This document shows, piece after piece, positions 509 to 54,810 of a stretch of DNA of 54,901 bases. Every line of letters starts with the position of its first letter. Position 1 is the stretch's first letter. The translations under genes and the position numbers were made by a program. The notes below the pieces were generated by a model, which ran no database searches, was not told the origin of the DNA, and was given only the letters and a program-made list of their open reading frames with translations. The stretch is taken from positions 1 through 54,901 of IMG/VR virus record IMGVR_UViG_3300032087_000550; one strand, 5' to 3'. This DNA is from a virus.

Positions 509-909
509 ACCTTTTACCCCAGCAAAACAACCGGAAACCCGCCCTCACGGACAAACAGGAAGCCTTTCTCGACGCCCTGTTCGACAATGGTGGTAACGTA
601 CGGGCCGCAGCGGAGGTTGCCGGGTACTCTGAGGGTTCGATCAAGTGGCTCAAGGACCGGTTAGCCGACGAAATCATCGAACGGACCAAAACCGTGTTAG
701 CGGGACAGTCCCTCAAGGCCGCGAACAAGCTGGTTAGCCTCGTGGACGCCGTCGATATCGAACGTGGGGACGATTTACGGATGAAAGCAGCCGAATCTAT
801 CCTCAACCGCGTAGGTTTAGGCCGACAGGACACCATGAACCACAATGTCACGGCGGTTCACGGCGTTGTCCTGCTGCCTCCAAAAAAAGAAGTAGTCATA
901 GATGGCTAA
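505..909 (+). CDS. terS: Terminase small subunit
   Basis: A 134-residue protein directly upstream of the large terminase. The N-terminal part (LTDKQEAFLDALFDNGGNVRAAAEVAGYS) reads as the helix-turn-helix typical of small terminases, which bind the packaging start site and regulate TerL. The rest is helical and would form the oligomer. GTG 505 was preferred over ATG 484 because GGAGAG lies 6 bases before it and it overlaps the previous stop as GTGA. It overlaps terL by 8 bases. Assignment rests on the motif plus position; the sequence of this subunit is poorly conserved between phages. Confidence 0.8.
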   Translation: MNLLPQQNNRKPALTDKQEAFLDALFDNGGNVRAAAEVAGYSEGSIKWLKDRLADEIIERTKTVLAGQSLKAANKLVSLVDAVDIERGDDLRMKAAESILNRVGLGRQDTMNHNVTAVHGVVLLPPKKEVVIDG

Positions 910-2638
910 CAAGCCACGTAAACGTGTCCTAGTCCCCCCTGACCCGGCGACCGTGGACAAGCCGCGAACTCGCGGCAGACCCAAGAAAGACCCGAACCAA
1001 CCTAAAGCCGAGTACAAGCTCAGTGACAGGGAGCGGGCACGACGTTCCGTCCAAATGCGTCTTCGTAACGCGAAGAAGTCGGCAGCTACCCAGCAACGCA
1101 AAGCCGAATATAAGAAAAGCAAGGTCAAGAAACTGACCGAATCTGCAGACAAGATAGAGAAGGCACTACAGGGTGAAAAGACTAGAGTCGTTGATCAGGG
1201 CGATCTTACAAACCTGCCGGACGCAGTTGGCGATCTGGTGGATGGTAGCCCGGTTATCTTCAAGCCAAATCCGGGACCACAAGAAGAATTTCTTAGCGCG
1301 TCTGAACGAGACGTACTCTACGGCGGTGCTGCCGGTGGTGGAAAGAGCTTTGCACTTCTTGCTGATCCGCTACGTTATTGCCACAATTCTAATCATCGTG
1401 GTCTTCTTCTCCGCCGCACACTGGATGAACTTACCGAACTAATCGATAAGTCGAAGCAGCTATACCCCAAAGCGTTCCCGGGTGCAGTCTTTCGAGAAGC
1501 AAAGTCCACGTGGGTTTTCCCATCTGGGGCAACCATGTGGTTCACTTATCTCGACAGGGACAAGGACGTGACCCGCTTTCAGGGTCAGGCGTTCAACTGG
1601 ATCGGTATCGACGAGATTACACAGTATCCCACACCGTACGTTTGGGATTACCTTCGTTCACGACTCCGTTCGACGGACCCGGAACTCCAGCAACAGTTGT
1701 GTATGCGCTGCACAGCCAACCCCGGAGGAGTGGGTGGTTGGTGGGTCAAGAAGATGTACATCGACCACCGCGAGGCAAACAAGCCTTTTGGTGCCTACGA
1801 CTTAGAAACCGGAAAAACATTTGTGTGGCCTGATGGTCACGAAAAAGCAGGTCAACCGCTGTTCTATCGCAAGTTTGTTCCCGCGCGGTTGACTGATAAT
1901 CCCTACCTGATGGCAGATGGCCAGTACGAGGCTATGCTCAGGTCGCTCCCGGATGTCGAGCGTAGACGACTCCTAGAAGGGGATTGGGACGTGGCGGAGG
2001 GAGCGGCCTTCCCCGAATTTTCAAGGGTGCGACACGTTGTCGAACATTTCGAACTACCTACCAATTGGCCACGTATACGAGCGGCGGACTACGGCTATGC
2101 GAGTCCATCGTGCGTTCTTTGGGGGGCTATTGACTGGGATAACAATATCTGGGTTTATCGCGAGTTGTATGCAAAGCACTTGACAGCAGAGCAGTTGGCT
2201 GATAAAATACTAGAAGCAGAAGAGTTAGACCCACTTCCACACTACAATGTTCTAGACTCTTCTTGCTGGAACAAGACCGGGTTCGGCCCGTCCATTGCGG
2301 AGACAATGATGCGGGCGGGTGTTAGGTGGACGCCATCAGACCGTAACCGTCTACAAGGAAAAATGGAAGTTCACAGGCGGCTTTCTGACGACCCTTACAC
2401 CAACGAACCACGTCTAAGAATATTCTCCTCGTGCAAGCACACCATAGCTCAACTATCGGGCATACCTCTCTCCAAAACCAACAGTGAAGATGTAGACACG
2501 AAGGCAGAGGATCATGCGTACGATGCGTTGCGCTACATGGTGATGACGCGCACGTCTGGATATCAATCTATACACAAATCACTTCAGGGCATCAAGGATC
2601 AGGCGTTTAAGCCGTTTGATGCCACATTTGGATACTGA
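902..2638 (+). CDS. terL: Terminase large subunit, packaging ATPase and nuclease
   Basis: 578 residues. The motor domain has a Walker A motif GGAAGGGKS (residues 141-149) and a Walker B motif IGIDEI (233-238). The C-terminal RNase H-fold nuclease begins near residue 393 with RAADYGYA, where D396 is a likely metal ligand. It translocates DNA into the procapsid and cuts the concatemer. Odd feature: about 120 lysine/arginine-rich residues precede the ATPase domain, including an AT-hook-like TRGRPKKDP (about 23-31) followed by a charged helix. The start ATG overlaps the end of terS, and the stop overlaps the next ATG as TGATG. Confidence 0.95.
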   Translation: MANKPRKRVLVPPDPATVDKPRTRGRPKKDPNQPKAEYKLSDRERARRSVQMRLRNAKKSAATQQRKAEYKKSKVKKLTESADKIEKALQGEKTRVVDQGDLTNLPDAVGDLVDGSPVIFKPNPGPQEEFLSASERDVLYGGAAGGGKSFALLADPLRYCHNSNHRGLLLRRTLDELTELIDKSKQLYPKAFPGAVFREAKSTWVFPSGATMWFTYLDRDKDVTRFQGQAFNWIGIDEITQYPTPYVWDYLRSRLRSTDPELQQQLCMRCTANPGGVGGWWVKKMYIDHREANKPFGAYDLETGKTFVWPDGHEKAGQPLFYRKFVPARLTDNPYLMADGQYEAMLRSLPDVERRRLLEGDWDVAEGAAFPEFSRVRHVVEHFELPTNWPRIRAADYGYASPSCVLWGAIDWDNNIWVYRELYAKHLTAEQLADKILEAEELDPLPHYNVLDSSCWNKTGFGPSIAETMMRAGVRWTPSDRNRLQGKMEVHRRLSDDPYTNEPRLRIFSSCKHTIAQLSGIPLSKTNSEDVDTKAEDHAYDALRYMVMTRTSGYQSIHKSLQGIKDQAFKPFDATFGY

Positions 2639-4422
2639 TGGCAGATATCACTACAAAGATTGGCGATCAAACTCTAACCATTCGTGAAGCTATCGAAGGC
2701 GCAGGTAAGTCTTTGAGTACCTCGAAGGGTGCGCCTAATGCGTTTGCTAAGAACATCGAAGCAGCAGGTCTGTCTTTGGATGACCCATGGTCTAGCTTGA
2801 AAGAGGAGTCTTTTCTTCGTAAACTAAATGAAGTTGGGACAGAAGGAAACTTCGTCACACTTCTCAGTGTAGAAAATGAGCTTCGTCGTCTCTCCAGTGT
2901 GGGGGATATTGCTTATCCATATTCTGATGTGTTTAGCCCTGAAGGAAAAGCCAGAGGATTAAAACTAGAAAAAGCACAACAGGCACGTCGAACCAAGAAG
3001 TTCAAAGGTGTTCCCGAGGCCAAGAAATCTCTCACTGCTTTGACAGAGGGCATTTCTGTTATCAAAGACCCGCGAACTCGCGCTGCTGTTGCTTTCAACG
3101 CTCTAGTCCCTCTACGTCCCGGAGAAGTTGCCGGAATTAAAGTGGAGGACATCGACTTCGAAACCGGCTCTTTTAAGGAGTCGTATCGTCGTGTGAACAA
3201 GATTCGCAATGAGCTTGACCTCCCGGAAGTTGCGTTAGAAATTATACGAGACGCTGCTGAAAAGGCCCGGGCAGAGGGTCGGGAATACGTGTTTCTTGAT
3301 AAGGATGTGAAAGACCCAAAGAAAGCAACCAGCAACTTTGTGAATAAGATGACCACCGGTATGAAGATGTCGGGAGGTGTCATTGAAAGATTCAAGCCAT
3401 TTGAAAAGGCAATGGGTCGTGCGGTTGCCGGTGCTTCTGACATTCGTAAAATCATTCCCTCTATTATTGCAAGTGAATTAGGATACACCACAGAAGCTAG
3501 TGCGATTATGGGTCACGCATCCTTCGATGAAACCATCGACGGCATGAAAGGTATTACTCGCAAGCACTACGTTTCTCAAATTATCACCGACGAAGGCACC
3601 ACAGCAAAGCAAGCCCTTCGTGCCCTACAAAACATGTACGGCGAAGTTCTTGGCTTGTCAACTCTAAACGAGATTCCTGCTTCTATGGGGGTCGATGCTG
3701 CTGGTCTGACTACTGAAGGTTCCGCCCGCCTAGCCGTCATTCCTAAAGGTTCCGAAATTGTCGGCACACAGGTTCAGGGGAAACTGACTGACGCCGACCT
3801 CGACCTGATAGAACAAGTGCGAGAAGCACGTAAGCAAGAACTGCGACTGCAAGCTGCAACGTCAGAAGAAGCGGCCTTACAAAAAGAAATTGCTATCGGT
3901 GCCCTTGATGAAGAGGCAGAGCGTGTAAAAGCACAAAAGCGTTTGCGTAAGCAAGAAATCTATCAAGAAGAAAAAGCTAAACGCGCTCCTTCTGACGAAA
4001 CTGTACCCGCATCCAATCCCGAAGCCCGCGCTTCCCTCGAACGCCGTGGGTTTGACGCTAAAGGTATGGCAGCAGCCATCAATAAACATCTGGGCAGGGC
4101 GGGTAAGCTTGTAGGTGCGGCAGCGGTTGTTGAAACTGCGCGACAGTTTATAGAAGCACCCCTCGAAACAGGAGCAGCAGTAGCTTCCGAAATAGGCTTG
4201 GAAAAAGCCTTGGGCCTCGGTCCTTCCGTCGCTGCTACCGTAGCACTGACACCCACGCCCACAGCCGGACCCGAACTAACCCAACCGCAACCCCGTCTGC
4301 GTTTCGATGACGATGACTTCCAGTATCGCGACGAGGGATTTGTGAGCAAAGAACAAGCTGACCGGAACCGCGAGGAAGCCGCCGGTCGAGCCGCCGAACC
4401 TATAGGCTTCCTTTCACCATAA
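2638..4422 (+). CDS. Protein with tyrosine-recombinase-like catalytic domain
   Basis: 594 residues between terL and the portal gene. Residues about 125-315 look like a phage integrase catalytic domain: VPLRPGEVAGIK supplies Arg I (R160), ASDIRK supplies Arg II (R270), MGHAS supplies His (H293), and RKHYV supplies a possible nucleophile (Y311). Two deviations: the usual His three residues before Arg II is Ser (S267), and H293 to Y311 is 18 residues, against about 9 in XerD or lambda Int. The remaining C-terminal half is a charged coiled coil (about 385-470), an alanine-rich segment and a Pro/Thr-rich tail, unlike integrases. It could be an integrase, a recombinase carried in the virion, or a decayed domain in a structural protein. 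Its stop precedes the next gene's RBS by two bases. Confidence 0.6.
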   Translation: MADITTKIGDQTLTIREAIEGAGKSLSTSKGAPNAFAKNIEAAGLSLDDPWSSLKEESFLRKLNEVGTEGNFVTLLSVENELRRLSSVGDIAYPYSDVFSPEGKARGLKLEKAQQARRTKKFKGVPEAKKSLTALTEGISVIKDPRTRAAVAFNALVPLRPGEVAGIKVEDIDFETGSFKESYRRVNKIRNELDLPEVALEIIRDAAEKARAEGREYVFLDKDVKDPKKATSNFVNKMTTGMKMSGGVIERFKPFEKAMGRAVAGASDIRKIIPSIIASELGYTTEASAIMGHASFDETIDGMKGITRKHYVSQIITDEGTTAKQALRALQNMYGEVLGLSTLNEIPASMGVDAAGLTTEGSARLAVIPKGSEIVGTQVQGKLTDADLDLIEQVREARKQELRLQAATSEEAALQKEIAIGALDEEAERVKAQKRLRKQEIYQEEKAKRAPSDETVPASNPEARASLERRGFDAKGMAAAINKHLGRAGKLVGAAAVVETARQFIEAPLETGAAVASEIGLEKALGLGPSVAATVALTPTPTAGPELTQPQPRLRFDDDDFQYRDEGFVSKEQADRNREEAAGRAAEPIGFLSP

Positions 4423-4437
4423 TTGGGGAGAAAACCG

Positions 4438-4656
4438 ATGCCGAACAACAACTACAATTACGGCGCAGCCTACATCATGGGTGCTTGCACGACTTCCGTG
4501 GATGACCAGATGGGTGCTGACCAGTTGTATCGTGAGGGACTTGAGTTCGATACCAAGACCGCACAGGGTGTTCTGACGGAAGATATGCCGAAGAAGCAGA
4601 CCAAGACTGCTGTTGACGGTTCTATCATGCGTCTGGCCGAAGAACGCGACTACTAA
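4438..4656 (+). CDS. Small conserved head-region protein, unknown function
   Basis: 72 residues, mixed charge, no membrane segment. The start ATG at 4438 has a good RBS (GGGGAG, 4425-4430); an in-frame TTG at 4423 would lie before it. It sits between the recombinase-like gene and the portal gene and ends 3 bases before the portal start, so it belongs to the head operon. I do not recognise the family. Confidence 0.7.
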   Translation: MPNNNYNYGAAYIMGACTTSVDDQMGADQLYREGLEFDTKTAQGVLTEDMPKKQTKTAVDGSIMRLAEERDY

Positions 4657-4659
4657 GAC

Positions 4660-6780
4660 ATGTCAGAAGATAATTTTCTCCAACCGGCGGATGATACCGC
4701 TGTAAGTCTGCTCAATCCTGAAGAGCAGATGCCCGGTCTTGCGGCTTACGTGCGGGCCAAGTTCGAAGACTCTGAGAATGGTCGGTACGCTCACGAGCAA
4801 CGCTGGCTTCAGTCGTACAAGAACTTTCGAGGCATCTACGACTCCACGACACAATACCGCGAGTCGGAAAAGTCACAAGTCTTCATCCGGATCACAAAGA
4901 CGAAAGTCCTTGCAGCTTACGGCCAGATCATCGACATCTTGTTCGCAAACAAGAAGTTTCCGCTGGTCGTCGAGTCCACTCCCGTGCCAGAAGGCATCGC
5001 GGAGTTTGCTCACATGGAGACCCCTCTCGATCAGATGCAGCCGCAGGACCCCTTCGGGTTCGCAGGAGACGGCAGGGAGCTTGCTCCCGGTGCCCTACAG
5101 GCGGAGGAGTCCAAAGCCTTTCTAGGAGGCTTACAGGGCGAATACGGGCAGTTGCCGCTGGCAGAGGGGCCAGCCAAGATAGGTGAACCGCAGATCGAAC
5201 CGGCCAAGATCGCGGCCCGCCGCATGGAGAAAACTATCCACGACCAACTGCTCGACACGAACGCTGTGAACGTGTTGCGTAGTTCCATCTTTGAATCGTG
5301 TTTGCTAGGAACCGGTATCGTCAAGGGACCGTTCAATTTCTACAAGCGCATCCACCGCTGGGAGCGGGACGATACGGGTGAGCGGCAGTACGTGCCGGAA
5401 GAAAAAACGGTCCCGCGTATTGAGATGGTTTCGGCTTGGGACTTCCATCCTGACCCGTCAGCAACCAGCATCGACGACTGTGAGTACGTCATCGAACGTC
5501 ACCGCATGAACCGCCAGCAACTTCGCGCTCTTATCAAGCGTCCGTACTTTAACGCGGAAGCTATTCAGGAGTGCCTTGTAAAAGGCCCGAACTACGAAGA
5601 CAAGTACTACGAGGATACCATTCGCGAGGATGAGACCGAGCCGTACTATCAAGGTAATCGCTACGAAGTCTTGGAATACTGGGGCGTCTTGGATTCCAAG
5701 CTAGCCAGAGAAGCAGGTCTCGAAGGCGCGGAACAGATGTCGGAGTTCGACGAGGTTCAGGTGAACGTCTGGGTGTGTGGTGGCATGGTGATCCGCTGTG
5801 TCCTCAATCCGTTCACGCCAGCCCGCATTCCGTATCAGGTGTTCCCGTACGAGATCAACCCCTACCAACTGTGGGGTGTTGGCGTAGCAGAGAACATGGA
5901 GGATGCACAGAAGCTGATGAACGGTCACGTTCGTATGGCTATCGACAACCTCGCTCTTGCTGGCAACCTTGTGTTTGACGTGGATGAGGCCAGTCTCGTA
6001 CCGGGACAGAACATGGACATCTTTCCGGGCAAGATATTCCGGCGTCAGTCCGGTGTCACAGGCACAGCCATCAACGGTCTCAAGTTCCCGAACACCGCTG
6101 GTGAAAACCTGCAGATGTATCAGATTAGCCGTCAACTGGCTGACGAGGAGACGGGCATCCCGTCCATCGTACACGGCCAGACGGGCGTAACCGGCACCGG
6201 TCGTACAGCAGCGGGCCTGTCTATGCTGATGGGTTCTGCGGGCTTGTCGATGAAGACGGTCATCAAGAACATCGATGATCATCTTTTGAAGCCTCTGGGG
6301 GAGTCGTACTTCCAGTGGAACATGCAATTCAACGAGGAATCCGAGGATATTATCGGTGATCTAGAGATCAAGCCGCGCGGTGTGGCGGCGGTTATGCAAA
6401 AAGAGGTTCGCACCCAGCGACTCACCTCTCTCCTGCAAACCGTATCGAACCCGATGCTTGCTCCCTTCATTAAGATTCCGAACCTCATGCGCGAGTTGGC
6501 CATCTCTCAGGACATCGATCCGGACAGCTTGGTCAACGATGCGAACGAGGCTCAACTCTACGCAAAGATGTTACAAGGATTGATGGCAAATGTACAGCAA
6601 GGAGCAAGCGAGGCTGGTGGGGCCGCTGGTCAAGAACCCGCAGGTATGGACGGGGCTGGAGGAGTATCTCCAAGCCCTGAAGGAACAGACGTTCAAGGGT
6701 CTGGTAACGGCACAATCGGAGTCGGAACTGCGCCAACTGCAGGGGAAAGCGGCTTTACTGGAAATGCTCCTCAAACTTAA
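4660..6780 (+). CDS. Portal protein
   Basis: 706 residues, the size expected for a podovirus portal, placed shortly after terL and before scaffold and capsid. The N-terminal half has the usual pattern of a charged helix followed by conserved segments around ITKTKVLAAYGQIIDILFAN and a central region rich in aromatic residues. The portal is a dodecameric ring at one capsid vertex through which DNA enters and leaves and on which the tail is built. The last 60 or so residues are Gly/Ala/Pro-rich and of low complexity, and that stretch is overprinted by the next gene in the +1 frame. The start has only a weak RBS. Confidence 0.88.
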   Translation: MSEDNFLQPADDTAVSLLNPEEQMPGLAAYVRAKFEDSENGRYAHEQRWLQSYKNFRGIYDSTTQYRESEKSQVFIRITKTKVLAAYGQIIDILFANKKFPLVVESTPVPEGIAEFAHMETPLDQMQPQDPFGFAGDGRELAPGALQAEESKAFLGGLQGEYGQLPLAEGPAKIGEPQIEPAKIAARRMEKTIHDQLLDTNAVNVLRSSIFESCLLGTGIVKGPFNFYKRIHRWERDDTGERQYVPEEKTVPRIEMVSAWDFHPDPSATSIDDCEYVIERHRMNRQQLRALIKRPYFNAEAIQECLVKGPNYEDKYYEDTIREDETEPYYQGNRYEVLEYWGVLDSKLAREAGLEGAEQMSEFDEVQVNVWVCGGMVIRCVLNPFTPARIPYQVFPYEINPYQLWGVGVAENMEDAQKLMNGHVRMAIDNLALAGNLVFDVDEASLVPGQNMDIFPGKIFRRQSGVTGTAINGLKFPNTAGENLQMYQISRQLADEETGIPSIVHGQTGVTGTGRTAAGLSMLMGSAGLSMKTVIKNIDDHLLKPLGESYFQWNMQFNEESEDIIGDLEIKPRGVAAVMQKEVRTQRLTSLLQTVSNPMLAPFIKIPNLMRELAISQDIDPDSLVNDANEAQLYAKMLQGLMANVQQGASEAGGAAGQEPAGMDGAGGVSPSPEGTDVQGSGNGTIGVGTAPTAGESGFTGNAPQT

Positions 6781-6814
6781 AGAGAACCACGAGGCACTTG
6801 TGAAGAATGGTTGA
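6590..6814 (+). CDS. Small helical protein overprinted on the portal 3' end
   Basis: 74 residues in the +1 frame relative to the portal gene, overlapping it for 191 bases. It reads as a compact amphipathic helical protein (VWTGLEEYLQALKEQ, then LRQLQGKAALLEMLLKL), while the portal frame over the same bases is low-complexity Gly/Ala. An RBS AAGGA (6575-6579) lies 10 bases upstream of the ATG, and its 3' end overlaps the next gene start by 8 bases. Small helical proteins just after the portal gene are common in podovirus-like phages. Role unknown; a head assembly factor is inference. Confidence 0.75.
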   Translation: MYSKEQARLVGPLVKNPQVWTGLEEYLQALKEQTFKGLVTAQSESELRQLQGKAALLEMLLKLKENHEALVKNG

Positions 6815-9266
6815 CCGCATCCCCCTCTTTCCTGACGACGATACTTATCCGGGCTACACTCCTACAGAGTTTGAGACCGTGACTCCGGATGAGTATAGGG
6901 CAGGGCAGGTCAATTACTTCACACAGGTTCTCGGGCCTGAGACAGCCAGCTTGGAAGAAGAAACGGGCATCGAAGTTACTAAAGCCCCTGATGTTGATGG
7001 AGAAGAAACACGGGAAGAAGACCCGAGTTCAAAAATTCCAGACGCTATTCTTGGAGCTACACGGCCCACACTAGATGGCGGTGTCAGTGAAGCCTATGAG
7101 ATATCGTTCGATATTCCGGATATCGGTGGTAGCTATTCAGACTATTTAAAATCGGCAAACAAAACAGATCGCCTCTCTCTCGTAGAGAACATCTTTGAAC
7201 CGGGGTTCGATCCGGATGCCAGCATGGAATTGGGAAAGGGCATTTCGGGAGCATTCAAGGAAGGCGCGGAAAGAGTCAAGGCGTTTCCGGATAAACTAAA
7301 AAGCCCGGATGCTAAGGCTCGTACTGGAATAACGGGACTTGCAGCGGCAACTGGCCTTATTCCGGGTGCTATTGTAAGCGGGTTGCTAGGCGGCACCCGA
7401 GTGAAGAATGCTTTCAACAAAAACAGCTTTAGACCCCCCGGCTTGCTCGGTGGCATAGCTGACATGGTTCACTCGAAACAGTACGGGGATATGCAAGCCA
7501 TTCGAGCGGCCAGAATTGCGAACCCGTACGGCGACACGGGCTTCGCCATGTCTCTTGGTGGTTTTGGTGTTACCCGCGCTCCCGGCTCTAGAGTGTACAC
7601 GGGTAACACTGGCGGGATGGACATCGAAACCCTGACAAGTCTAGAGGCAATCAGTAAAGGTTACGATCCTATCAAGGGTCGTTACAATGCTCTCGATCCA
7701 AGTAAGAGCCAGACTGTGGTTGCTTCGGGGGGCATACAGGTGTCTAACAATCCGATGGACGGGTTCATTCGAGCTAACGGCACCGTCTATGACCCGAGGT
7801 TTATTGGCGCAGGAGCTTCGGCGGCGTACGCTCGTAGCGATATGATTGAGAAGGCCGCGCGGAGCTTTGGAATTTCAAGTGATGAAATGAGTGACGCGGT
7901 TGCTGTTGCTCGTTCTGGTCGAATGACCGTATCACAGGCTGTTCAGCAAATTCAATTTAAGAATGCTCGGGCCGTGCAACAGCAGAAGATAGCCGCCTAC
8001 AATCAGCAAAAGCAGGAGCAGCAAAGGGCGGGGCAGCAGCTTACGATTGCCCAAGCTAGGCCGGGTGAAATGCCTCAGAGCGAAGCCGCTGCAAAGGCAC
8101 AGCGGGAAGATAGTGGCGACGAGGGCTTCGACTATTCGAGCGCGGGTGTTGATGACGAAGGTGATGCTGCCCCAGACTACGATAGCAGCGGTTTGACTTC
8201 GTGGGCTTTGGGTGGTCGCATCGGTCTTGCGATGGGCGGCGCACCCGGAATGGCGTCCGGCTTTGTAGAACGTCCGCCTAGCCAAGTCCCCGAGGGCGAA
8301 ACCGTAGCCGATGATAAAAAGACCCAGCTTCCGGAGGGTGCGTTTGTTATCAACGCCGCAGCAGCCGAGTTTATGGGAACCAACGACGTTCGCACGATGC
8401 TGTTAGATGCACATAAAGAAGCACTTAGGCAGGGATTAGCAGTTGACAAACAAGGAAACGGTGCTAAACTAATAGACGTGGCGATATCTCGCGGTGAAGT
8501 CGTAGTCGCCCCACACCTCGCTAAAATAATTGGCTATGATCGCTTGACCAAGATCAACAATCGCGGCAAGCCCGAAACCCGCGAACGCATCGAAGAGAAC
8601 GGTCAGGCTCCGGCACCAGCCACTATGCAAGCCGCTACAGGTATGCTGGTTTCTGGTCAGATGGTGAACCCCACCCTCACACAACAAGACCTACGCGAAC
8701 AGGGTTTTCTTTCCAAAGAATACGCCCCGATGCCGGACACCCCCATCCCGTCCCGTGACGAAGATACCTTCTTCGGCTACACCGTGGGTGAATTGAAAAA
8801 AGCTATCAAGGATGTTGAGATTAAGGGTTTTGAAAAAGACCCGTACATTATCACAGGTGCTGCACGAGGAAAAAACAAATCGTCTGCCTTCGGACCTATG
8901 CAAGTTACCTATTCTACCCTAGAAGATTTTCAAAAGCGAAGCCCAGAATACAAACTCTTAGATAACGACAAAAAAGAATACGTCAACGACTTGATACAGC
9001 AGGGTCGTGATGTAGTCAACTATCAAAAGTTTGGCGCAGTCTATCGAAACGGCAAGCGTCAAAAAGTTTCTAAAGAACAAGCCAAAAATTTGAAGGCGTA
9101 CGGCAGCGGCACTATCGACCGCGCCCGCCACGAAGAACATTACGACGTTGTGGCTGATATGGTCCTTCGTCTTAAATTATCGGACCACGAGAACATTAAG
9201 GATGCTCTGGCTTCTTACGGCGAAGGCCCAGCCTATGCAAACAAGGTTCTCAAAGGTCTAGAATAA
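6807..9266 (+). CDS. Large virion protein with C-terminal lytic transglycosylase domain
   Basis: 819 residues. The N-terminal region is acidic and Pro-rich. A hydrophobic Gly/Ala segment (about 172-195, ending GLIPGAIVSGLLGG) could insert in a membrane. A Gln/Ala-rich helical stretch lies about 380-430. A conserved block about 505-600 (starting EGAFVINAAAAEFMG and including GEVVVAPHLAKIIGYDRL) is one I recall from other marine phage virion proteins. The last 165 residues resemble an SLT-type transglycosylase, with SSAFGPMQVTYST (about 691) matching the family's G-x-MQ region. Probable role: an ejected or internal protein that opens peptidoglycan locally at infection. Its place between portal and scaffold, far from the other internal proteins, is unusual. 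Confidence 0.75.
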   Translation: MVDRIPLFPDDDTYPGYTPTEFETVTPDEYRAGQVNYFTQVLGPETASLEEETGIEVTKAPDVDGEETREEDPSSKIPDAILGATRPTLDGGVSEAYEISFDIPDIGGSYSDYLKSANKTDRLSLVENIFEPGFDPDASMELGKGISGAFKEGAERVKAFPDKLKSPDAKARTGITGLAAATGLIPGAIVSGLLGGTRVKNAFNKNSFRPPGLLGGIADMVHSKQYGDMQAIRAARIANPYGDTGFAMSLGGFGVTRAPGSRVYTGNTGGMDIETLTSLEAISKGYDPIKGRYNALDPSKSQTVVASGGIQVSNNPMDGFIRANGTVYDPRFIGAGASAAYARSDMIEKAARSFGISSDEMSDAVAVARSGRMTVSQAVQQIQFKNARAVQQQKIAAYNQQKQEQQRAGQQLTIAQARPGEMPQSEAAAKAQREDSGDEGFDYSSAGVDDEGDAAPDYDSSGLTSWALGGRIGLAMGGAPGMASGFVERPPSQVPEGETVADDKKTQLPEGAFVINAAAAEFMGTNDVRTMLLDAHKEALRQGLAVDKQGNGAKLIDVAISRGEVVVAPHLAKIIGYDRLTKINNRGKPETRERIEENGQAPAPATMQAATGMLVSGQMVNPTLTQQDLREQGFLSKEYAPMPDTPIPSRDEDTFFGYTVGELKKAIKDVEIKGFEKDPYIITGAARGKNKSSAFGPMQVTYSTLEDFQKRSPEYKLLDNDKKEYVNDLIQQGRDVVNYQKFGAVYRNGKRQKVSKEQAKNLKAYGSGTIDRARHEEHYDVVADMVLRLKLSDHENIKDALASYGEGPAYANKVLKGLE

Positions 9267-45574: not shown

Positions 45575-45604
45575 ATTATACTGTCAGGACTTCTTCCAAG
45601 TCAA
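45575..45604 (-). promoter_or_regulatory. Internal minus-strand promoter
   Basis: Read on the minus strand: TTGACT (45604-45599), an 18-bp spacer, and a perfect TATAAT (45580-45575). It overlaps the last codons and stop of the polymerase gene and lies about 35 bases ahead of the start at 45540. It would give extra transcription of the ssDNA-binding-type gene and everything downstream, including the RNR. Confidence 0.7.
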
Positions 45605-47123
45605 GCCAGTTTTTTCCCATTTTTAATTCTATTCCTACAGGCATGTCATAGCGGATGCCGTAGCGACGTTCCGTCTCCTGCGGTATGGCTAGCATACTTT
45701 TCGCCATGATCTCAATGCACTGCTTCTCTTCTCCCGGGAACACGTCCATAACAATCGAGTCGTGTACCGTGTTGCAAATCACGGACTGTAACCCACTGTC
45801 TTTCAACAGATTATGCAGCATCACAAGAGATAAGGGCAGCAGGTCTGCGGTGGCGAACCCCTGCACGGGATAGTTGCAGATAGCTGTCCGGTTCGTGGCG
45901 GTGCCCCATTCGGTCCAGCGGGTTCCCGGGAAACAATACTGTCGCCCGGATGGAAGCTTGATGTGGCTCTTGGTTACGGCGTCCCGCTGCAAGAGTTCGT
46001 GCCAGTCACTCACGCCGCTGTACTTCTGCTTAAAGGCACGGTAGTACCGCTTCTGATCTTCGGTGCCGCTCACGCCGCCGTAGAGGGGCTTGAAGGTGTG
46101 TGCCTTGGCCTCTTGGCGGGTACAGCCAATGATGCTGGCGGTATAGCTGTGAACGTCCGTGCCAGCCTCGACATCGTTGCGGATGCCCTCATCCTTTGCA
46201 AGGAACCCGGCAACCCGAAACTCTAGCTGTGCGTAGTCACCCTCAAGGATCGAACCACCCTCGAACCGGCTTTCGACAGCGCGGCGGATAATGAAGGTCG
46301 AGCCGCGTGGCATGTTCTGGAAGTTCGGGTTGCGGGACGACAGGCGACCGGTAGCTGTCACACACTGCATATATTCTGTGTGTATGAAGCCGTTCGGGTC
46401 CATGTTGTTTTCCATGCCCTCGACAAAGGATCGCAGGTAGGTTCGCACAGCAGAGTAACGAACGTACGCCTCGGCAAACTCCCGGGCGTCACCCCGCAGG
46501 TCTGTCATCATTTCTTCGAGCGTTGTCTTGTCAGTCTTGAAACCGCCCGCAGCCGTATCGAATGTGTCGCGGGGAACGAGCTTGAACCCGGCAACCTCTC
46601 CAGTACTATGGTAGCGGACGCCAGAGCCGCCACAGGTCTTGCAGATACGCACGGCCTTACCGGGGGTGCCATCCTTGCGTGGCGGAGTGTAGCGGCCCTT
46701 ACCAGAGCAGTCCGGGCACTGTTCACCGATAGTCTTGTGCAAGATTGTGGTCTCATTGAGGATGTGCCGCTTGAACTCGCCCTTTGCCATGCGGGTTCGC
46801 TGCTTGGGCTTCTTGGTTGCGCCGCGAACCTCATGACCGAGATTGAAGATAGCAGCCCACCGCTTCTTGTCCTTGATCGCACAGGAGTAAAACAGGCGGG
46901 AGCGGTCATCTGGACTGTCGAGGTTGACCGGTGTGTCTCCCATCGCGTTCGCGGCAAGTTCCTGCAAGCGGCGTTCTAGGGTGAACAGTTCGTCCTCGTA
47001 CTCCTTGCGGATGTCGGCAAGGGTTGTCCGGTTGATCTTGATGCCGTTGCGTTCGATGTCCGCAAGAACGTCCGTGACTTCAAGCGACAGACGCAAAGTG
47101 GGCAAGAGAGCTTGGTTCTTCAT
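45576..47123 (-). CDS. Family A DNA polymerase with DnaJ-type zinc insert
   Basis: 515 residues from ATG 47123 (GAGG upstream). It lacks both 5' nuclease and 3'-5' exonuclease domains; the latter is encoded separately just upstream. Polymerase motif A is GDYAQLEFR (D296), the O-helix is RQEAKAHTFKPLYG (K340, F344 equivalent to Phe762 of E. coli Pol I), and motif C is TVHDSIVMD (H454, D455). Residues about 130-170 hold CPDCSGKG and CKTCGGSG, two DnaJ-type zinc motifs between the N-terminal region and the palm. That insert is the hallmark described for phage HMO-2011. The enzyme replicates the phage genome. Confidence 0.95.
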   Translation of the reverse strand: MKNQALLPTLRLSLEVTDVLADIERNGIKINRTTLADIRKEYEDELFTLERRLQELAANAMGDTPVNLDSPDDRSRLFYSCAIKDKKRWAAIFNLGHEVRGATKKPKQRTRMAKGEFKRHILNETTILHKTIGEQCPDCSGKGRYTPPRKDGTPGKAVRICKTCGGSGVRYHSTGEVAGFKLVPRDTFDTAAGGFKTDKTTLEEMMTDLRGDAREFAEAYVRYSAVRTYLRSFVEGMENNMDPNGFIHTEYMQCVTATGRLSSRNPNFQNMPRGSTFIIRRAVESRFEGGSILEGDYAQLEFRVAGFLAKDEGIRNDVEAGTDVHSYTASIIGCTRQEAKAHTFKPLYGGVSGTEDQKRYYRAFKQKYSGVSDWHELLQRDAVTKSHIKLPSGRQYCFPGTRWTEWGTATNRTAICNYPVQGFATADLLPLSLVMLHNLLKDSGLQSVICNTVHDSIVMDVFPGEEKQCIEIMAKSMLAIPQETERRYGIRYDMPVGIELKMGKNWLDLEEVLTV

Positions 47124-47664
47124 TGAATAGTTCCTCAAATGTGGTGCCAAAGGCTTCGAGTTGTGCAAGTGCTACTTGCTCGGTTGCAAGGACATCAGCC
47201 TTGCCATATGTTTCAATTATATGCCAAGGAATGTCATAAAACGTCTTACCTTCCTTGAAATACGGCGCGACAAGGTCTGCTTCCTTTTGCACTCCACTAT
47301 ACTTCTCTGCAAGAGCAGCAAGTCCCAGAGGCCAACGACGCGCCCGCGCCAGTATATATTCCGCAACCATCGTGTCATAGATATGTCCCTCGTATGTGAA
47401 TCCACAATCGCGAATCCAAGATAGATCGAACTTGATGTTTTGTCCAACGATAACGTCGGCGTGGTTCAAGGCAGCTTGAAATTTTGTGAACGCTCCCTCT
47501 GTGGGTGGCTCGGTTGAGTGGTAGTAGCAGTCGTAATCAACGGTGCTGTTGAGCCACTTGTAACCAATCGACACGAGCGAGTTGCCAAAGTACGGCAACG
47601 GTGTGGACGAGCCGTTCGCCTTCTCACGGTGTGTGGTTTCGATGTCAAAGGTCAAGACGTTCAT
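47080..47664 (-). CDS. 3'-5' exonuclease (DEDDy, proofreading-type)
   Basis: 194 residues with all three exonuclease motifs: Exo I FDIET (D7, E9), Exo II GQNIKFDL (D80) and Exo III YGKAD (Y153, D157). It is the proofreading domain of a Pol I-like enzyme coded as a separate gene and overlaps the polymerase gene by 44 bases, so the two probably work as one split enzyme. The helicase stop overlaps its ATG (TAATG). Confidence 0.92.
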   Translation of the reverse strand: MNVLTFDIETTHREKANGSSTPLPYFGNSLVSIGYKWLNSTVDYDCYYHSTEPPTEGAFTKFQAALNHADVIVGQNIKFDLSWIRDCGFTYEGHIYDTMVAEYILARARRWPLGLAALAEKYSGVQKEADLVAPYFKEGKTFYDIPWHIIETYGKADVLATEQVALAQLEAFGTTFEELFNEEPSSLAHFASVA

Positions 47665-54470: not shown

Positions 54471-54488
54471 CCGCGAACCCATACCCTT

Positions 54489-54510
54489 CCCGGCGGGGCT
54501 AATAGCCGGG
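54489..54510 (+). terminator. Hairpin, possible first terminator
   Basis: CCCGGC (54489-54494) and GCCGGG (54505-54510), 10-base loop, followed by TTCCTCCCTT. Weak by itself but placed 18 bases after the last early gene and before a second, stronger hairpin. Confidence 0.45.
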
Positions 54511-54527
54511 TTCCTCCCTTAACCTTG

Positions 54528-54558
54528 CCCCCGGCCTTTGCGCTGGGGGTTCTTTTTT
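54528..54558 (+). terminator. Strong terminator ending the early cassette
   Basis: CCCCCGGC (54528-54535) and GCTGGGGG (54542-54549), one G-U pair, 6-base loop, followed by TTCTTTTTT. It separates early plus-strand transcription from the late promoter across the circle junction. Confidence 0.85.
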
Positions 54559-54810
54559 GTGGCCCGTCGTGTTTATTGCCGGACGGGCTTTGTATTCCTT
54601 GGGGAAATCGGCGGGAACTTGTGCCGGGGATTGTTACTATATCCGAGCGGGGCGGGGCCATCTCAAGTTATCCGGCATGACAAATCACAGACGCGGGTGT
54701 GCGCGGGCGGGCTTACATGTAGGTTGCCGGGGTGGTTGCCGGGGTTGGCGACCGGCCAGAATCCTGCCGATCCGACGACATCACCGATGGAAAACAAAAA
54801 ATTCTCTACG
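54559..54810. other. Non-coding region at the genome junction
   Basis: Together with 1-313 this makes about 565 bases without a convincing gene. It holds one GACAAA-N6-ACGC copy (54679), a 12-bp tandem repeat (54722-54745), a G/C-rich stretch and an AT-rich stretch. Such a region before terS is a reasonable place for a packaging start or origin; neither is shown. Confidence 0.5.
54722..54745. repeat. 12-bp tandem direct repeat
   Basis: GGTTGCCGGGGT occurs twice in direct succession (54722-54733 and 54734-54745), both exact. It lies in the non-coding region near the junction, followed by a partial third unit (TGGCGACCGG). Confidence 0.85.

Follow-up and report, generated by a model that had tools for sequence, protein, structure and literature searches.

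The window analysed here is an IMG/VR virus record (IMGVR_UViG_3300032087_000550, 54,901 bases), and the gene in question lies at its positions 2638-4422, in the slot between the genes for the large terminase (terL) and the portal. As had been claimed in a preliminary description of the window, a tyrosine recombinase domain is found here inside the packaging operon, and the gene overlaps terL by one base, with base 2638 serving both as the last of the terL stop codon and the first of the recombinase start codon. A TerL scan of IMG/VR gave 148 related loci. In all 104 loci that contain both terL and portal, 1.8-2.8 kb separate the two and a gene fills the slot. Fifteen loci lack an open reading frame (ORF) of at least 300 amino acids directly after terL; in two of these terL is cut and most end within 800 bases past terL. 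In L112 and L144 the slot is of full size but its first ORF is shorter, possibly through a frameshift. As judged from sequence comparison, the main feature of the locus is the exchange of unrelated alleles of this gene between near-identical phages, which was not visible to the preliminary description.

The 111 distinct slot proteins form three profile groups (56, 41 and 14 members, the window protein being in the first). Clustering of the catalytic segment at 40% identity placed 108 proteins in 16 classes, two members of the third group without the TGQR form of the first catalytic arginine (Arg I) being excluded from class assignment. Little other than Arg I, Arg II and the nucleophilic tyrosine is common to the roughly 16 classes. 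On the TerL tree the class changes 59 times, compared with 73-81 times in 30 shuffles of the labels and a minimum possible of 15. TerL is at least 99% identical in 35 pairs of loci, and in 20 of these the classes differ; despite such differences the median identity in these pairs is 99.6% for TerS, 98.6% for the small gene that follows the slot and 95.3% for the portal. In L042 and L043, for example, the DNA is 99.2% identical over the 2859 nt that lead to the start codon and 100% over the 570 nt past the stop codon, while the recombinase genes between are unrelated. The same swap pattern is seen in L018/L020, L029/L052, L040/L041, L058/L060 and L032/L036.

The left boundary of the exchanged cassette is exactly the start codon, whereas the right boundary ranges from the stop codon to 476 nt upstream of it. 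The C-terminal tail can be common to different recombinase classes, as first noticed in L011 and L012; a tail travelling with the backbone instead of the core was considered and not seen, as the tail reassorts. A self-mobile cassette with matching ends was also rejected, since the left boundary is constant, the right one varies and there is no evident common site at the two sides. Homologous recombination fits these boundaries better, and the exchange as a whole would fit homologous recombination in the conserved neighbours together with selection for diversity. Some of the pairs could be false ones that stem from assembly chimeras. A pool of classes in a single slot cannot arise in this way, however, and contigs of different samples show the pattern repeatedly.

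Taken alone, the window protein makes a modest case for a tyrosine recombinase. Pfam PF00589 matches residues 145-240 with an E-value of 1.1e-4 and 22.4 bits (curated cut-off 27.1), PHROG 'integrase' families match with E-values of 1.3e-6 and 5e-5, and NCBIfam gave no meaningful match. With the relatives the case becomes strong. Slot proteins of other classes match PF00589 independently, two of them above the cut-off and over nearly the whole domain; the match is found in 16 of the 31 aligned members, and of 22 members of another group 16 match a PHROG integrase. The AlphaFold model of the window protein has a predicted local distance difference test score (pLDDT) of 63, with the tyrosine-bearing stretch poorly modelled, and in Foldseek its 14 best PDB matches are tyrosine recombinases at E-values of 0.03-0.3 (best 0.027). 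For L012, from class G, the most diverged large class, the pLDDT is 70 and at least 90 in a large part of the catalytic domain. All of the 29 best-scoring PDB matches of this model are tyrosine recombinases, with Tn1549 Int the best (E=4.9e-6) and Xer, lambda Int, integron integrase and Cre amongst them, and the alignments span the core-binding and catalytic domains. The two-domain recombinase fold is thus recovered in the predicted structures, clearly for the class-G member and weakly for the window protein.

The four catalytic residues proposed beforehand, R160, R270, H293 and Y311, are at the positions named, and the two deviations that had been pointed out are real: Ser267 takes the place of the histidine of the HxxR motif, and 17 residues lie between His293 and Tyr311. 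Besides the start methionine, R160 and R270 are the sole fully conserved columns in the window's group, and in an alignment of 31 members with a mean column identity of 22% the invariant columns are exactly R160, R270 and Y311. Among the invariant columns of the second group are R168 (Arg I, 41/41), R279 (Arg II, 40/40), R302 (an arginine at the H/W position, 40/40) and Y318 (the nucleophile, 39/39), while K197, which corresponds to the catalytic lysine, is kept in 39/41. No member has the HxxR histidine, whose place is taken by Ser, Tyr, Arg, Lys, Gln or another residue; at the H/W position there is either His or Arg. Of the conservation expected in relatives, that of R160, R270 and the tyrosine is therefore borne out, these being invariant where readable, while the position of H293 varies between His and Arg.

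The preliminary description had left room for a degenerate domain. This is unlikely, as the catalytic residues stay fixed while all else diverges and the recombinase fold is present. In same-class pairs with enough divergence, the ratio of nonsynonymous to synonymous substitution rates (dN/dS) in the catalytic domain is mostly 0.02-0.07, reaching 0.36 in a few pairs of which several are nearly identical, and for the window allele against its three closest relatives it is 0.02-0.03. The tail is looser, often at 0.2-0.5. The strong purifying selection on the catalytic domain argues for a working enzyme, and from the sequences as a whole we consider it highly probable that the slot encodes an active recombinase under allele exchange. 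The coordinates of the features are collected in Table 1.

Table 1. Features of the slot gene and its neighbours in the window.
Feature	Positions	Strand	Evidence
terL, large terminase	902..2638	+	PHROG terminase large subunit, E=1.4e-60
Slot gene, divergent tyrosine recombinase with C-terminal extension, 594 aa (amino acids)	2638..4422	+	PF00589 and PHROG integrase matches; invariant Arg I, Arg II and Tyr; fold
N-terminal helical domain, core-binding-like, aa 1-122	2638..3003	+	AlphaFold helices 2-122
Catalytic domain, about aa 126-337	3013..3648	+	PF00589 match, aa 145-240; dN/dS
Arg I, R160	3115..3117	+	R in 55/55 readable members of window group
Candidate catalytic Lys, K188	3199..3201	+	K in 37/52 members of window group
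Ser267, at position of HxxR histidine	3436..3438	+	S 28, Y 14, R 4, K 3, T 3, G 2 in window group; His never
Arg II, R270	3445..3447	+	R in 54/54 readable members of window group
His III, H293 ('MGHAS')	3514..3516	+	Alignment rows by eye: GH/SH in classes A, C, E; Arg (WRP, GR, LR) in D, F
Nucleophile Tyr, Y311	3568..3570	+	Invariant in 31-member alignment; Tyr in 54/54 readable rows by reading
Long predicted helix, aa 385-448	3790..3981	+	AlphaFold model
Exchangeable Ala/Gly-rich acidic tail, GF motifs at aa 567 and 590	4000..4419	+	Common to other classes; GF enrichment
Small conserved gene (MPNNNYNYGA...)	4438..4656	+	ATG inside listed TTG ORF 4423-4656
Portal gene	4660..6780	+	Pfam SU10_portal, E=9e-27; PHROG portal/adaptor
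819-aa gene after portal, probable internal virion protein	6807..9266	+	GF-type motif; no family match

The two ends of the window share 91 identical bases and an independent contig, L005, spans the end junction without a break; the assembly is therefore effectively complete and either circular or circularly permuted. From the identity of its TerL (55%), capsid (41%) and DNA polymerase (39%) to those of HMO-2011, together with portal (47%) and B12-type ribonucleotide reductase (70%), the window belongs to an HMO-2011-type phage; TerL identity to isolates of this type reaches about 57%. The DNA polymerase gene has a DnaJ-type insert, whose match to DnaJ CXXCXGXG (E=0.011) is below the curated cut-off. 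No isolate was found in the clade, the members of which are uncultured, HMO-2011-like and mainly marine. A start codon and peptide comparable to those of the small gene lie 3' of the slot in most related loci. In separate observations, the DNA polymerase and exonuclease part of the window (45576-47664, minus strand) consists of two overlapping ORFs in different frames, where HMO-2011 has one gene, and this may be either a true split or a frameshift. At 54476-54565 (plus strand) there are weak matches, below the Rfam gathering scores, to the alphaproteobacterial small RNAs suhB/MmgR (E=0.007) and SorX (E=0.015), which may hint at an alphaproteobacterial host or at a common terminator-like structure.

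The non-integrase tail of about 250 residues that had been described is present, at about residues 340-594. We searched for a GF-type motif, defined as GF[VILA] with an R, K or P among the next few residues. Its frequency per 1000 amino acids is 4.9 in the last 200 residues of the slot proteins and 2.6 in the gene that follows portal (37 homologues), where it is frequently SGFVDRPPSQVSE; the remaining proteins of the window have 3 in 15,711 amino acids. No homologue of the tail was found outside the terL-portal slot among the loci examined. The position between terL and portal and the motifs common to the tail and the gene after portal make a circumstantial link to the virion, and the slot protein may, with some doubt, be delivered in virions. 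Numerous homologues of the 819-residue gene carry a GFVxxPPSQVSE-like motif, and these homologues are highly variable, being 34-40% identical where TerL is 70-93% alike. At the other end of the slot protein, L038, L048, L049, L051 and L071, which are of different classes, have an additional N-terminal domain of about 140 residues that is partly similar between classes; it seems that the N-terminus is exchanged as well.

We tentatively favour a late-made, catalytically active site-specific recombinase of exchangeable specificity, most likely carried in the particle. The enzyme would be translated late with terL through the stop-start overlap, and the tail would direct it into the particle or the DNA-entry machinery, to enter the next cell with the DNA. 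There it would break and rejoin a short DNA site. Because unrelated enzymes interchange without visible change in the flanks, this site is unlikely to lie in them, which leaves host DNA, rival elements or the gene itself; a target in the host chromosome or in a rival element would be likelier than one in the phage backbone. Selection would favour rare or host-matched specificities, and the cassette would be swapped through homologous recombination, to the left in terL and to the right in the tail, the small gene or portal. That the virion-borne enzyme acts at once on host or rival DNA, in a polymorphic one-locus system whose specificity alleles near-identical phages swap like mating or immunity types, is a rather unlikely extension.

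Several observations weigh against a particle-borne enzyme of this kind. None of the proteins has the HxxR histidine and about half of them have Arg at the H/W position, which may alter the chemistry or make it slow. This deviation does not exclude membership of the superfamily, since subgroups with the first histidine replaced are known (PMC8138268). Just 56 of 90 complete slot proteins have GF at their very end, and the motifs are short with copies partly related by descent, so that they support a common destination weakly. The swapped backbones were compared over a few kb; amongst the long contigs, compared for a second locus that varies along with class, no pair is both close enough and class-discordant. 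No att, dif-like or palindromic site was found in the window, nor was there, in seven classes, a convincing stretch of synonymous-site constraint that could mark an att site inside the ORF. The window contains no tRNA, no att site from a known RNA family, no close inverted repeat of at least 20 nt and no dif- or core-like site with inverted arms of at least 11 and a spacer of 4-12 nt, though imperfect sites could escape this search. Inversion of a shufflon or fibre type was considered and rejected, as the tail-fibre genes have no short-range inverted repeats.

HMO-2011-type phages have been described as a dominant and widespread marine group; for most of its subgroups an obligately lytic lifestyle was considered probable, as an integrase had not been recognised, though the relative CRP-3 does integrate (PMC9038755). 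An ordinary temperate-phage integrase that has been relocated to the packaging operon, with integration at a host attB and class swaps that change the site, would therefore have a precedent for integration in this group, but it is an unlikely explanation. Apart from the recombinase domain itself, it would suit the absence of the HMO-2011-type integrase beside the primase. A second PF00589 match was found in none of 27 clade records, several of them of 47-57 kb; the match is the slot gene where its place was checked, and elsewhere is one weak match in a frame of 590-660 amino acids, while the same search readily detects the canonical integrase of HMO-2011 and CRP-2 at an E-value of about 1e-20. 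Integrase swapping is also a known route to altered attB use. On the other side, the gene sits among late genes, the canonical HxxR histidine is absent, no repressor or excisionase family was recognised among the ORFs scanned and no attP candidate lies near the gene. An attP that travels with the enzyme must be inside the ORF, where no synonymous constraint marks one. Among 84,980 species genomes, in which host coverage is limited, there was no clade member and no prophage, and the idea that host prophages with junctions in this phage might be found thus gained no support. The single relative in those genomes (TerL 53%) has an empty slot. No relative of the window protein or of six other class representatives was found in isolated phages, and none in plasmids when searched with one protein.

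The slot is likewise empty in HMO-2011 and CRP-2, and in other HMO-2011-like relatives it holds small ORFs or different cargo. An annotated SGNH/GDSL hydrolase lies in the interval in L004 (5222-6829) and, by sequence reading, a FAD-dependent-looking protein in L158 (3935-6484) and an HNH-like protein in L159 (6532-7191). These varied contents and the very high allele turnover would be expected if the slot were a general accessory site and the recombinase a cargo for competition, attacking or excluding rival phages or host elements, with allele diversity kept up by frequency-dependent selection. We think this quite unlikely, as the gene is present in every clade member with a readable slot, which suggests a needed rather than an optional function.

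A late Xer- or Cre-like resolvase that acts on the phage DNA, in dimer resolution or in trimming of concatemers before packaging, is very unlikely, even though the gene adjoins the terminase in the late operon and Xer proteins are amongst the best structural matches. Such an action, which had been suggested beforehand, is left without support by the lack of any dif-like palindrome or lox-like site in the window. The site would also have to change with each allele, yet the flanks are 99-100% identical across class swaps, and HMO-2011 and CRP-2 package their DNA with an empty slot. Least probable of all is that the protein, though derived from a recombinase, has lost catalysis and serves to bind DNA or in a structural role, for although the HxxR histidine is lost in all members and His III is replaced with Arg in several classes, Arg I, Arg II and the tyrosine never change and a protein of this kind would not need the nucleophile that every class keeps.

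The preferred reading, an active and exchangeable recombinase, places the slot protein alongside known members of the tyrosine recombinase family (PF00589; lambda Int, XerD, Tn1549 Int), with which it has in common the core-binding and catalytic fold, Arg I, Arg II, the tyrosine and usually the hairpin lysine. It differs from them in never having the HxxR histidine, in having either His or Arg at the H/W position, in the location of its gene between terL and portal and in a C-terminal tail of 150-250 residues. In the window's class and in class G, moreover, 15-17 residues separate the H/W position from the tyrosine, compared with about 8 in XerD. The protelomerases TelN and TelK also combine a tyrosine recombinase fold with replacement of the HxxR histidine and are of a length similar to the slot protein. 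A protelomerase was rejected, as the window has no long palindrome with near-zero spacing and its ends are joined in L005. The canonical HMO-2011-type integrase (phage1322_09 of HMO-2011, and that of CRP-2) belongs to the same superfamily and wider phage group, but it lies beside the primase, has about 300 residues, scores 68-72 bits with PF00589 and is not recognised by the slot-family profiles. The loss of the first histidine is found again in IntDes, where that of the RKHRH pentad is replaced with Tyr, and in IntBPP-1, where it is weakly conserved; these enzymes differ in coming from prokaryotic genomes and in having arm-binding domains, and the available part of their description gives no link to a packaging operon (PMC8138268). 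The open-access literature gave nothing relevant on a virion-packaged or packaging-operon tyrosine recombinase.

Standard profiles mostly miss this conserved recombinase, which is present in at least one large clade of phages with the hallmark genes of the HMO-2011 type. A tyrosine recombinase that is tied to a packaging operon, has an unusual active site and comes in at least 16 exchangeable classes would represent a new niche for the enzyme family. The classes are a possible source of new site-specific recombinases, and the slot would provide a clean system in which to ask what drives allele turnover in phage populations.

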